Origin: a virus
DNA: 37,158 nucleotides
Virus record (IMG/VR): IMGVR_UViG_3300033145_001543
Span: 1 to 37,158 of that record
Reading direction: 5' to 3' (one strand)
The translations under genes were made by a program, and so were the position numbers. A model generated the notes under the pieces. It worked only from the letters and a program-made list of their open reading frames with translations. It was not told the origin of the DNA and ran no database searches. Shown piece by piece: positions 614-6,104 of this stretch. The number at the start of each line of letters is the position of its first letter. The first letter of the stretch is position 1.

Positions 614-1227
614 CAGTCAAACATCCCCTCTGTCTGTTTTTTCCTCAAGGCTGCCTTTTGTCGTTCAGCTTCAGCTCGGGTATCGGGGATATCCTTTGCA
701 GTCCTGTTGAAGATCCCGGCAGCAAGGCCTTTGAGGTTTTCGACGATTCCCACCCGTACTTCAAGAATTCCTTCTTGAATTCCTTCGGGCGTCACAGGGA
801 CCGCCCTTTCTTGTCGCGTATGACGCCCTTTCTTGTCGCACATGACGCCCTTTTCATCCGTTAAGGGCGGTCCCTGTGACGCTGTTTCCTCTTCGTTAAG
901 GGCGGTCCCTGCGACGCTGTTTAGTGATAACCATGTCTGGGCGAACATGCGATAGACCACCGAGTGAGTGCGGCCACCCTTGTTACCTGTTCGTCGCACC
1001 ATTAAGCCTGCAGCGCACAGTCGACGTTGCGATCGCTGCACCGTCCGACGGTTGAGACCGGCCTTTTCCCCGACAGTCTTCACCGATGGCCACGAATCAC
1101 CCTGTTTGTTGGCGTGACGGCTCATTACTACTAACACCTTCACGTCGTTGCCTTGGAGGGCAGACAATTGATGATCGGCAACAAAATCAGGTATCCAGAA
1201 CCGCTTAAGACGTTTTTGTTCTGACAT
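613..1227 (-). CDS. winged-helix protein, probable replication initiator
   Basis: 204 residues. Residues about 45-80 form a helix-turn-helix of the type found in phage replication and plasmid Rep proteins (WPSVKTVGEKAGLNRRTVQR). Residues about 102-146 form a charged linker whose DNA carries iteron-like repeats, as lambda O carries its origin. The C-terminal part is charged and helical. The RBS TAGGAG lies 8 bases before the ATG, 9 bases after the preceding gene. No helicase loader or polymerase was recognised, so this phage probably relies on host replication enzymes. HTH is seen; initiator role is inferred from the embedded repeats and position. Confidence 0.6.
   Translation of the reverse strand: MSEQKRLKRFWIPDFVADHQLSALQGNDVKVLVVMSRHANKQGDSWPSVKTVGEKAGLNRRTVQRSQRRLCAAGLMVRRTGNKGGRTHSVVYRMFAQTWLSLNSVAGTALNEEETASQGPPLTDEKGVMCDKKGRHTRQERAVPVTPEGIQEGILEVRVGIVENLKGLAAGIFNRTAKDIPDTRAEAERQKAALRKKQTEGMFD
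791..922. repeat. iteron-like repeats, candidate replication origin
   Basis: Inside the winged-helix gene. Three direct copies of CGCCCTTT start at 802, 824 and 846 (exact 22-bp period), the first two continuing identically as CTTGTCGC. They are followed by two 27-base direct repeats at 861-887 and 896-922 that differ at one base (35-bp period). An 18-bp perfect inverted repeat links 791-808 with 863-880. Periods of 22 and 35 are not codon multiples, which argues for selection on DNA. The arrangement resembles the iterons of lambda ori within gene O. Confidence 0.6.
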
Positions 1228-1609: not shown

Positions 1610-1888
1610 TTAGAATTCCGTCACCGTTATCATCCTTCGCCTCGCAAAGAGACAGGGAAACTCCACGCCTTCTTCTTGCATTCTCTGCAGATGTTCTCGA
1701 AACGTACGCGATTGGCCGTCTTCATCGTGGTAGCGCAGCGTGTCCATTTGTTCTTCGGTCAATTCGCCTTCGAACCCGTCGACCACTTCATCTCGTGGCA
1801 GTCCGGTGTCTTTCATTTCTGCAGCGATCGCCTCTTCCAGGGTTTCCGCCGCGTACCATTCGTAATCATTCAACGAAAAGACCTTCAT
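1610..1888 (-). CDS. small acidic phage protein, unknown
   Basis: 92 residues from the ATG at 1888, which overlaps the integrase stop as TGATG. The N-terminus MKVFSLNDYEWYAAETLEEA and the acidic middle (DEVVDGFEGELTEEQMD) give it a compact, soluble look. Similar short proteins beginning MKVF.LND.DWYAA are familiar from phage and prophage early regions, with no assigned role. It is the first gene downstream of attP on this strand, so after integration it would become the first phage gene behind the host tRNA. Confidence 0.65.
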   Translation of the reverse strand: MKVFSLNDYEWYAAETLEEAIAAEMKDTGLPRDEVVDGFEGELTEEQMDTLRYHDEDGQSRTFREHLQRMQEEGVEFPCLFARRRMITVTEF

Positions 1889-3612
1889 CACCCGTCCTTT
1901 CTGCTGTCGATCACAAAGGACTTGATAGCGGCCCACATCTCGGCAGCCATCTTGTAGATAGGCCCCTCGAATGAGCTGCAATCCTCGAATAGCGAATCGA
2001 GATGTTGGAACCGATCGTATAGATCAAGAATGCTCTGGGCGGTCCCTGGGCGGGGCGAACCGACACCGGCTGCACCCTCTTGCACACCAGTGCACTCGGG
2101 CGGTTGTTCTGAAATGGGCGTATCGCCTGCAAATTCGCGGGCAGAACGCGGATTCGGGTCAGAATCGTGCGATTCAGCGGTGGTAGTCCCAACGGGATTT
2201 GAACCCGTGTCGCCGGCTTGAAAAGCATTGCGTTCGACGCGGGTAAGCGCCTGGCCTGTCTCGCCCTTAGAGCTTCGGCCCTGTGTCTCTGGGCGGCTAT
2301 TAGGCGGGATTCGCTGCGTCGAACTGCACTTCTCTGCACGCCCTTGCACACTCGGCGCAGAATTTTCAGAAACGCATGTCGCTGGCCCATCGGTGCCGGT
2401 GGCGACGTTTTCGGCCGATTTTTCCTCGCTTTCCGCTTCATCTTCCGGCGAGATACTATCGAGATCATCCAGGGCGGCAGCCATCCGGCCCACGTCGCGA
2501 TGGACATAGAGCCCGAGCGACACAGTCGGCGTCGAGTGCCTCAAGAGGCCCTGGAGGACCTTAGGATCCGCGCCAGCATCGTTAAGCCGCTGGCCGAACG
2601 TATGGCGCAGCGAATGCAGGTCGACGGTCCTGCCGGCAGCGTCGCGCTTCGCGATCCCAGCGGCCTCGATGTCTCGATCGAATGTCCGCAGAATCGATGT
2701 CGGGACCTTGACCACGCGATCGCCGGGACCTGCCTGCGTTACCTTCTTCCACTCCTTGAGCGATTCGCGGATCTCGGCGCCCATGGGAAGCGTCGCGTTC
2801 CTGGCGTTCTTCGTCCAACTCTCCCGGCAGTAGATCCGGCGATCGTTGAGATCCACATCGGACCACGTAAGCGCCCGGAGCTCGTCGAGCCGCAGACCCG
2901 TCGCGAGCAGCATGCGATATATGAGGCAATTGCGAGACCCCATCTCGCGGGCCTTGACGTGGTCCTCGTGAGAGCGTTTCTCGCTGCCGGGGATCCGTGC
3001 GAGTCGTTGCACGGGTCCGCTGAGAGCCGCCTGCAGCAATCGCCGGCACTCGTCCGTCGAGAGCGGCCGCCGCTTGCGGACCTTGTGCCGCTCGCTGCGT
3101 GCCCGGACGGCGTCGAGCGGGTTGTACGGTATCAGCCTCCGCCGCACCGCCCACGTGAGCGCGCCCTTGACCGCCTGCAGGTATGTGTTGACCGTCCTGG
3201 CCGAGAGTCCTTGATCCTCGAGCTCGTCGAGCACCGCTTCGACAGCTTCCGGCCGGACATCGTCAACGAATAGCAGCCCAGCACGATCGACGATCAGCCC
3301 GATGCGATGTCTCACCCCCTTGACGTGGTCAGCGGTAACGTGACGCTCTCTCTCACGCAGATAATCCGCCAACAGTTTATCCAGACGGATCTCGCGCGCA
3401 CTGACACCCGGCAACCCTGCCTTCTCGCCGGCGACTGCCACTTCCATTTTCATGAGTGCCTGGCGGGCTTGATCTTTGTTCGGCCCGATCTTCCGACGCC
3501 TGGTCCTGCCCCTGGCATCGGTGTACTCGATGTACCAGGCCCGGGTGAGCTGCTCGACGGGCTGCCCATCCGGTCCTTTGACCTTATACTTCCGCTTGAA
3601 GACTCGTCCCAT
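1888..3612 (-). CDS. int: tyrosine-family site-specific integrase with attP-containing C-terminal extension
   Basis: 574 residues. An arm-binding beta domain occupies about 1-60, a SAM-like core-binding domain about 75-170, and the catalytic domain about 180-385. Catalytic residues are R241 (ATGLRLDEL), H333-x-x-R336 (HSLRHTF), H359 and nucleophile Y369 (LGLYVH). Known integrases usually end near here. This one continues for about 190 residues: a low-complexity stretch (390-520) encoding the attP DNA, then a helical end (525-574). The start has GAGGG upstream and lies out of frame inside the excisionase ORF by 163 bases. Recombination at the tRNA core would replace residues beyond about 478 with host-encoded sequence. 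Confidence 0.95.
   Translation of the reverse strand: MGRVFKRKYKVKGPDGQPVEQLTRAWYIEYTDARGRTRRRKIGPNKDQARQALMKMEVAVAGEKAGLPGVSAREIRLDKLLADYLRERERHVTADHVKGVRHRIGLIVDRAGLLFVDDVRPEAVEAVLDELEDQGLSARTVNTYLQAVKGALTWAVRRRLIPYNPLDAVRARSERHKVRKRRPLSTDECRRLLQAALSGPVQRLARIPGSEKRSHEDHVKAREMGSRNCLIYRMLLATGLRLDELRALTWSDVDLNDRRIYCRESWTKNARNATLPMGAEIRESLKEWKKVTQAGPGDRVVKVPTSILRTFDRDIEAAGIAKRDAAGRTVDLHSLRHTFGQRLNDAGADPKVLQGLLRHSTPTVSLGLYVHRDVGRMAAALDDLDSISPEDEAESEEKSAENVATGTDGPATCVSENSAPSVQGRAEKCSSTQRIPPNSRPETQGRSSKGETGQALTRVERNAFQAGDTGSNPVGTTTAESHDSDPNPRSAREFAGDTPISEQPPECTGVQEGAAGVGSPRPGTAQSILDLYDRFQHLDSLFEDCSSFEGPIYKMAAEMWAAIKSFVIDSRKDG
2071..2095. promoter_or_regulatory. left arm-type integrase sites, three TGCAC boxes
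   Basis: TGCAC occurs at 2071, 2081 and 2091, an exact 10-bp period, so all boxes face the same side of the helix. The same triplet, with the same period and orientation, recurs on the other side of the tRNA core. This is the expected layout of arm-type integrase binding sites. Assignment is by position and symmetry only. Confidence 0.65.
2181..2226 (-). other. attP: attP core: 3' half of tRNA-Glu(UUC)
   Basis: On the minus strand this reads as anticodon loop with UUC, anticodon stem 3' strand GCCGG, variable loop, T-arm (ACGGG-TTCAAAT-CCCGT), acceptor 3' strand TGGGACT, A73 and encoded CCA. Upstream of about 2226 the sequence no longer matches a tRNA: the 5' strand of the anticodon stem is broken after GC. 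It is thus a tRNA fragment, as expected for an integrase att core that restores the host tRNA after insertion. It is translated as part of integrase residues about 463-477. Confidence 0.88.
2325..2349. promoter_or_regulatory. right arm-type integrase sites, three TGCAC boxes
   Basis: TGCAC occurs at 2325, 2335 and 2345, matching the period and orientation of the set at 2071-2095. The two sets lie about 85 and 100 bases from the tRNA core. Sequence between boxes differs (CCTCT and ACCAG on the left, TTCTC and GCCCT on the right), so this is not a simple duplication. Confidence 0.65.
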
Positions 3613-3860
3613 GATTTTCCCTCAGACCTCCTTTCCCTCTTGATCATCGCCGCCGGCGGGCACCCCCTTTGCACCCAGGCCCGGACGGCCTCCGGATCGA
3701 ACCGAACGAACCGGCCCACACGCAAGAACGGTATGCTGCCCGGGTCCTCCGGATCCACTCGGAGAGCATAATAGATCCAACGCCGTGAGACTTGCAAGAA
3801 CTCAGCAGCCTCACGAACGGTCCACAGACAATCCTTTGTCGTATTCGCCTCTTTTTCCAT
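3450..3860 (-). CDS. excisionase-like MerR/HTH_17 DNA-binding protein
   Basis: 136 residues. Residues about 11-65 form the compact winged-helix of excisionases (LWTVREAAEFLQVSRRWIYYAL, then a wing and FDPEAVRAWV). This directs excision by bending attP with integrase. The start ATG overlaps the preceding stop as TAATG. The remaining 60-odd residues are low-complexity (SSSSPGPGTSSTPMPGAGP) and out of frame with the integrase start, overlapping it by 163 bases. Typical excisionases are 65-80 residues, so either this tail is real or the frame has shifted near 3640. Function is confident, C-terminus not. Confidence 0.75.
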   Translation of the reverse strand: MEKEANTTKDCLWTVREAAEFLQVSRRWIYYALRVDPEDPGSIPFLRVGRFVRFDPEAVRAWVQRGCPPAAMIKRERRSEGKSWDESSSGSIRSKDRMGSPSSSSPGPGTSSTPMPGAGPGVGRSGRTKIKPARHS

Positions 3861-4463: not shown

Positions 4464-6104
4464 TCATTTCGTCACCTTGGCCGGCTTCGGTTTTGGAATC
4501 TTGATTGTCTTTGGAGTTCCATCGGCCTTGAGGTTCGCCCAGGTTTTCGGTTCGAGGAATCCCTTGCGATCGCAAACATCCTTGTACATGTCGTCGACCG
4601 GGAGCCCGAGCAGCTTACCGATCGCGCGCGCCTCTGGGACATGGCCGCTCGATGGAATGCTGCCAACGTTGCAATAGGCATGTAGCCGGTCATCAATAAC
4701 GCCACAGACTTGCGCCCAGAGATCCTTAACGCCTGACCCGTCATGCAGAACCTTCTTGATCCGCTGCCAAGCAGACGGACCCCGATCAAAGTTCCTTCTA
4801 TTATTCGTTCCGAGAACCGCAGCAATCGCACACACCAGAGACAACGAATCCTTTGCCTTGAGAGTCTTCAGCACGAACATCGACGGCTCGCTTTTGGAAA
4901 CCATCTTACGAAGCTCCACGAGGACCTGCGCCCAGCGTCTTCCCTCGAGCGCCCGCCGGCGATCCTTGAGCGGCGTGGGACCCGCTTTGACCTTCGACCG
5001 ACCGCTCCCGTTGCCACCGGTTCCGTGAGGCAGAACATATGTAAGCGAACCCGCTCGCGCACCGCTGACGACCATGGCCGGCAGCGCGCCCTTGTCGTTC
5101 TTCTTCGCCGGCTTTACATCGTGCCATTCCTTCTTGCTGCACGTTTTCAACTTGAGCCCCAGGGCCTTACGCAGACGCTCCTTCTCGTAGAAATCCACCA
5201 CTCCATCAACGATAGGCAGCAAGTTCGGATGCTCCTTCTTGAGCTCCGCCTGCATGCGCTGCACAAAAGCGACCTCCTTCTTCTTCCAGCACGTCCTATC
5301 CAGGCAACGCGCGGGCCCTGCCTTCTTGCCGGCATCTTCCCAAAGCCCTTGTTGCTTGTCGGTGTCGCTGCGCTTCTGACACTCCGAGCACGCACCCGCC
5401 GCCGGCACCAACGCAGCGTCGGCAGAATCCCATCGACAGCCATCGAGCGATCGAGTGTGCCCCTTGATCGCCGCCGCCAACGCCTTCACACTTATCAGCT
5501 TGCCGTGATAGGTCCTTAGTTGACAATCTCTGTCTTGACGGATAGCGTCCTGCGTCGCCTCTGGCAATCGTGCTACAAGCTCGAGATGCGCCACCGTGGC
5601 CTGAGACTCCGGAGAGGCAGGATTCTCCACCGCTTTGCGCCAAGCGGGTGAAAGCTTCTCCAGACGCATGCGCATATGGACAGCCTGTTCGGTCCACCCG
5701 AGCTTCGATGCTACCGCCGGCACGTCGCCATCGTATCGCTCCAGGAGAATCCTTACGGCCTTGGCTTGCTCGAGCGGCTTGAGATCCTCGCGCCCGAAAT
5801 TCTCAATAAAGGTGATATCGAAAGCTTCTTTGTCCGACATCTTCATGTCGACCACTGCCGGAATCCATTCGCGCTCCGCTGCTTTGGCCGCAGCATAGCG
5901 CCTCGCACCGGTACGCAGGTCCCATTTACCTTTTTGTTTCGGATGTGGCCGGGCACTCACCGGCACACATACGCCTGCTCCCTTCACCGACTCCAGTAGT
6001 TCCAGAAATGCCGCAGCGCTTGTGTCCAACGTCCGCGGGTTGTCCGGTGTCGGAATCGTGTCCGCCACCAGAATGTCCATCAACAACTTACCGTTCTTTC
6101 CCAT
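4464..6104 (-). CDS. ParB/Spo0J-like protein with cysteine-rich extension
   Basis: 546 residues. The ParB N-domain occupies about 1-110, with the GARR box at 66-69 (family consensus GERR) and ENFGRED at 101-107. A helix-turn-helix follows at about 126-150 ([22 protein letters not shown]). These are the CTP-binding and DNA-binding parts of ParB. The remaining 350 residues include a cysteine cluster near 235-275 ([12 protein letters not shown]) and a basic region. No ParA gene is present in the window. In phages such proteins may act in replication or transcription rather than partition; which applies here cannot be told. Confidence 0.85.

Follow-up and report, generated by a model that had tools for sequence, protein, structure and literature searches.

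A phage attachment site inside an integrase coding sequence and its counterparts in Planctomycetota

Introduction

The phage attachment site attP of lambda is not part of int, and the integrase protein is the same before and after integration. In Mx8, integration gives int a new 3′ end; the enzyme is not inactivated, and its specificity is changed (PMC6070905). The archaeal SSV-type (suicidal) integrases of SSV1, pTN3 and pT26-2 have attP within int, and the gene is split upon integration (PMC8371274). A review from 2021 described self-disrupting recombinases as exclusively archaeal (PMC8371274). The authors of Islander allowed for such overlaps, naming Mx8 and SSV (PMC4383910). A literature search for planctomycete cases of attP inside int, with a coverage made up mostly of papers outside subscription, returned nothing on point.

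Here we analyse an IMG/VR virus record of 37,158 bp, called the window throughout. A preliminary description made from its letters had read attP as lying inside the integrase coding sequence, and the analysis below supports that reading.

Results

The phage and its integrase

The record is classed as linear and has no end repeats; circularity is thus not demonstrated. Most of the recognised genes are on the minus strand. They comprise the small and large terminase subunits, portal, S49 protease and capsid, together with a ParB-like protein, an O-like replication protein, an HTH excisionase-like protein and the integrase. The plus strand holds an HTH-S24 repressor-like gene. This set of structural, replication, repressor-like and integrase genes therefore identifies a temperate tailed phage. 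The terminase genes are at one end of the contig and HNH is at the other, a layout that fits the free, non-integrated form. A planctomycete is the likely host, because relatives of the integrase sit nearly all in Planctomycetota genomes.

The O-like replication gene (613–1227) contains a perfect 20-nt inverted repeat, GCGTCACAGGGACCGCCCTT / AAGGGCGGTCCCTGTGACGC, at window positions 784–922, plus a further copy at 95 %. By analogy with lambda-type phages, this repeat inside the initiator gene may be the replication origin. Beside its integrase, the phage has the ParB-like protein (4464–6104). None of the contigs of phages related by portal carries an integrase.

Pfam assigns residues 225–373 of the integrase to Phage_integrase (PF00589, 4e-22). 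The R..H-x-x-R..Y pattern of tyrosine recombinases is present, with R241, H333, R336, H359 and Y369 invariant in the family alignments, and lambda integrase on att DNA is the best match among solved structures. The AlphaFold2 model predicts an N-domain of three strands and one helix, which presumably binds the TGCAC boxes described below. The body is modelled with confidence to about residue 370 and is followed by a less certain stretch to residue 405. The features of the gene are collected in Table 1.

Table 1. Features in and around the window integrase gene.
Feature	Position	Strand	Remarks
C-terminal tail, residues 529–574	1891..2028	−	two predicted helices; coding signature back; severance by integration predicted
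Linker, residues 406–528	2029..2397	−	predicted disordered; without codon-position GC signature; whole attP inside
P′ arm, three TGCAC boxes, 10-bp period	2071..2095	−	residues 506–514; GTGCA in int sense
attP core, 3′ half of tRNA-Glu(UUC)	2181..2226	−	sense to int; residues 463–478
P arm, three TGCAC boxes, 10-bp period	2325..2349	−	residues 422–430; GTGCA in int sense
Catalytic tyrosine Y369 codon	2506..2508	−	invariant column in alignments A3 and A4
Integrase (tyrosine recombinase) ORF	1888..3612	−	574 aa; from translation and Pfam; whole attP inside
HTH_17 / excisionase-like ORF	3450..3860	−	overlaps int start, as uoi overlaps int in Mx8

attP lies in the integrase frame

The preliminary description had reported two triple TGCAC arrays with an exact 10-bp period on either side of a tRNA-Glu 3′ half, all in the integrase frame and past the catalytic tyrosine; each of these features was confirmed. 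The pattern TGCACN5TGCACN5TGCAC occurs exactly twice in the window, in the same orientation. We also ran a test free of any motif, which accepts any 5-mer in three copies at a period of 9–13, in two arrays at most 600 bp apart. The TGCAC pair was the sole paired array in the window, and 0 of 200 dinucleotide shuffles gave a pair of any kind. TGCAC overall is not enriched (69 seen, 75 expected). Complete tRNA-Glu genes in L003 and L005 end in the same 29–30 nt as the tRNA half, and the loop TTTTCAA of the half corresponds to the anticodon UUC. ARAGORN found zero whole tRNAs in the window, as expected for a half. We infer that the phage recombines at tRNA-Glu(UUC). The exact 43-nt half had no match in the GTDB representative genomes, and no integrated copy of the window phage itself was found. 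The arms and the tRNA half together take up residues 422–514, so that the core, flanked by arm-type boxes on both sides, is inside the ORF and downstream of Y369.

The same region could be read differently: the window would be a prophage cut out of chromosomal sequence, and the C-terminus of int would be a hybrid junction instead of attP. The missing end repeats would allow this, and such hybrids do occur in most chromosomal relatives. The core, however, is only a tRNA half and has the same triple box on both sides, and the genes on its far side are phage genes (the O-like replication protein and HNH). The terminase at one end and HNH at the other also fit a free genome. We reject the chromosomal junction as highly improbable and treat the region as attP.

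A predicted disordered linker and a conserved tail

The AlphaFold2 model predicts residues 406–528 to be disordered (pLDDT about 30) and residues 529–572 to form two helices with moderate confidence. The helical fold of the tail is tentative, since the alignment is shallow (22 rows). The codon signature, obtained by subtracting GC at the second codon position from that at the third, was calculated for 16 att sites including the window, with the tail taken as the last 35 codons. The mean signature was +0.31 in the catalytic core, 0.00 in the linker and +0.26 in the tail (Wilcoxon p 3e-5 for linker against tail). By this sequence measure, the tail bears the marks of a protein under selection.

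Most of the tails, including those of elements whose ends were rejoined (see below), have a common motif of the kind DLxxVIxxWPxLPxxIKAGIxAMV. The tails of G003, G009, L198, L205 and the window are unlike it. In L093, the closest relative among the matches listed (48 % identity), the common motif is out of the int frame. There it stands directly after a sense tRNA half (L093:3534-4090), and the frame shift may be an assembly error, decay or real variation.

Extensions with tRNA sequence in relatives

Single-protein scans of IMG/VR gave no relatives, and distant phage integrases, once aligned, offered no sufficiently conserved stretch. With an alignment as guide, the search gave 69 viral loci and, as the best 80 from bacteria, loci that lie nearly all in Planctomycetota. 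Alignment A2, the guide for one scan, included three invented pattern rows; no conclusion rests on A2, and its matches were confirmed against the real query. Among the matches listed, 122 integrases were scored, 68 with a long extension (at least 65 aa past the catalytic tyrosine) and 54 with a short one. The preliminary description had named extended relatives devoid of a tRNA segment or periodic boxes as evidence against itself, and this objection was not borne out. A T-arm lies inside the ORF of 60 of the 68 long-extension integrases and of 0 of the 54 short ones among the matches listed (Fisher p 2e-26, for related sequences that are not independent). The density of T-arms in this set is 2.4 per kb in the extensions versus 0.25 in the integrase body.

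The tRNA part is antisense to int in most relatives listed; the window, L093, L136, L213 and others form the sense minority. Targets among the matches listed are the tRNAs for Ser, Arg, Pro, Thr, Cys, Lys, Phe, Gly, Leu, His, Met, Tyr and SeC. Integrases of this class use tRNA-SeC (selC) repeatedly (L118, L125, L133, L144 and L151). Three very close integrases of one metagenome-assembled genome (L121, L128 and L152 in MAG24), on short tree branches, have ORFs that reach into different tRNA genes, Ser(GCT), Arg(TCT) and Ser(TGA), which looks like recent target switching. The long extension of L191 is without a T-arm and has repeats of TGCGACG-type boxes on either side; the layout may be the same one, aimed at a target other than a tRNA. 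On the tree, the tRNA-in-ORF trait is clustered yet switches often, with at least 14 changes on well-supported branches. Given so many changes, a single origin of the trait is not supported.

Integrated copies and rejoined sites

A complete tRNA gene lies within the int ORF at 43 of 51 chromosomal loci versus 3 of 17 viral contigs among the matches listed (p 1e-6). When 16 loci were tried, a second copy of the tRNA part (29–101 nt) was found 6.2–37.9 kb upstream of int at 11 of them. There was no second copy in the fetched range for G011, G015 and G018, G004 had only a 16-nt repeat as second copy, and int was not located in G012. A twelfth element (G023/L136) spans 43.8 kb in the window's own orientation; its far end bears an intact tRNA-Ser, and the 3′ part of this tRNA lies inside int. 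In L118 and L148 (G013 and G014), the repeated core is the tRNA 5′ part instead of the 3′ part.

In all 12 resolved integrated copies, the junction lies inside the int ORF, where the preliminary description would have it, and the catalytic domain is intact. The ends of the elements were then rejoined by script, which yields a predicted and not an observed molecule. In 12 of 12 cases, the int ORF was open through the core and ended in the tail. The rejoined frames thus show that integration cuts the tail off the catalytic part in these 12 integrated relatives.

These results bear on the possibility that attP is truly just downstream of a normal integrase, with a frame open by chance and a tail that is non-functional read-through. 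Phages often have their att site beside the 3′ terminus of int, and GC-rich DNA keeps frames open by chance. Another frame of the window att region has a single stop only, so the open frame alone is weak evidence in such DNA. The tail, however, is conserved between elements and has a protein-like codon signature that the linker is without, each of the 12 rejoined sites runs in frame into a tail, and the tail of the window is predicted to be helical. We therefore reject chance read-through as unlikely and regard the tail as part of the protein.

The preliminary description had also proposed that the protein was extended to carry its own recombination site. The ORF does hold the site, but it is more than a carrier, with a tail beyond the site that has a normal coding signature, is predicted to be helical and is cut off by integration. 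Such an ORF may have arisen by extension over the site or by fusion of a tail across it.

Arm boxes

The left and right arms of each site share boxes specific to the element. G014, for example, has ACTGTACCGGAAACTGTACCGGA in both of its arms, and G013 has CTTGGCGTCCTGCTTGGCG. The match score between a site's own arms has a mean of 18.8, versus 10.4 (sd 1.9) between arms of different elements. Shared arm boxes were absent from 2 of 20 sites (L181 and L213). The ungapped score of the window is a modest 14, because its boxes are short. Most att sites of the relatives have periodic arm boxes, with a best tandem period of 12 bp in 24 of 40 arms versus 9 % in shuffles. The window, with three boxes and a 10-bp period, is unlike most relatives. 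In G003, G006 and G009, the two arms carry near-identical boxes and differ in the frame in which these are read; the DNA is therefore what is conserved. The earlier view that the repeats are selected as DNA is better borne out by these boxes and by the lost codon signature of the linker. Its argument from a 10-bp period that is no multiple of a codon is peculiar to the window, as the relatives mostly have 12 bp, or four codons.

Discussion

We are confident in the following reading of the locus. The window would be a temperate tailed phage in its free form, with a planctomycete as the probable host and a complete attP in its int, and integration at tRNA-Glu would split off the tail and leave a hybrid with altered activity or specificity. 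The integrase N-terminal domain would bind the TGCAC boxes of both arms, and the tRNA-Glu half would recombine with the host tRNA-Glu(UUC) gene. With the core placed after the catalytic domain and before the C-terminal tail, integration would split the gene. The catalytic part would fuse to host DNA and gain a host-encoded end, with the tail left at the other end of the prophage; excision would rejoin the two. The full-length protein would be the integration form. The hybrid without the tail probably behaves differently, judging by Mx8, and this could help to keep the prophage in the chromosome, as is reported for that phage. The att DNA is tolerated in the protein because it is located in a linker predicted to be disordered. 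Integration splits off the tail, as seen from the sequences of the 12 relatives.

Alternatively, the site may be in int for compactness, as a one-piece module, with a tail that the protein needs and whose loss has no regulatory role. A compact int–att module is easy to exchange, as argued for the archaeal suicidal integrases (PMC8371274), and regulation is not shown by any measurement here. On the other hand, every lysogen would lose the tail, and yet the tail is conserved; it therefore matters in the free form. The Mx8 integrase, moreover, changes its specificity after integration (PMC6070905). Compactness as the whole explanation is possible but somewhat doubtful, and we prefer integration that alters the enzyme.

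More broadly, and as something close to an even call, Planctomycetota may harbour a large class of mobile elements in which integration itself is the switch. The site would sit in a disordered linker, a conserved tail would be swapped for a host-encoded one, and the state of the DNA would reversibly set the form of the enzyme and its direction. Of the 122 planctomycete-type integrases among the matches listed, roughly half have the layout, with many different tRNA targets; this share is not a census for relatives mostly from metagenome-assembled genomes and a bacterial set of the best 80. This bacterial breadth runs against the description as exclusively archaeal (PMC8371274). The layout gives a clear example of a site for DNA recombination inside a coding frame, apparently accommodated by a disordered linker. 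It suggests a simple, testable route by which integration could control its own reversal, and would account for the odd, variable C-termini of such integrases in chromosome annotations.

Comparison with known systems

The window shares the fold, the catalytic residues and the arm boxes flanking the core with lambda-type integrases that have a tRNA attB, but here attP is inside int. In SSV-type integrases, the N-terminal part is separated from the catalytic part, whereas in the present layout the loss is confined to the tail and the catalytic domain remains intact. The window also differs from them in being a bacterial phage with a lambda-like fold and arm boxes. Membership in the SSV type was rejected, with the core behind Y369 and the catalytic domain intact in all integrated relatives.

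Mx8 IntP (NC_003085) resembles the window in having attP inside int behind the catalytic domain, with part of a tRNA in the ORF. The same box (GTGACAGCG) flanks its core on both sides, a tail with a coding signature lies beyond the core, and an HTH gene overlaps the start of int. The two are distant in sequence (26 % over the N-terminal part, E 0.005). Unlike in the window, the T-arm in Mx8 is antisense to int, there is one box on the right arm and an 11-bp period on the left, and the tail is unlike the tails found here. The layout thus matches that of Mx8 and is hence not categorically new; in bacteria, it is known essentially from that phage. The new points are its wide occurrence in Planctomycetota, the tail motif shared by most elements, the evidence from the codon signature and the triple 10-bp arrays of the window phage.
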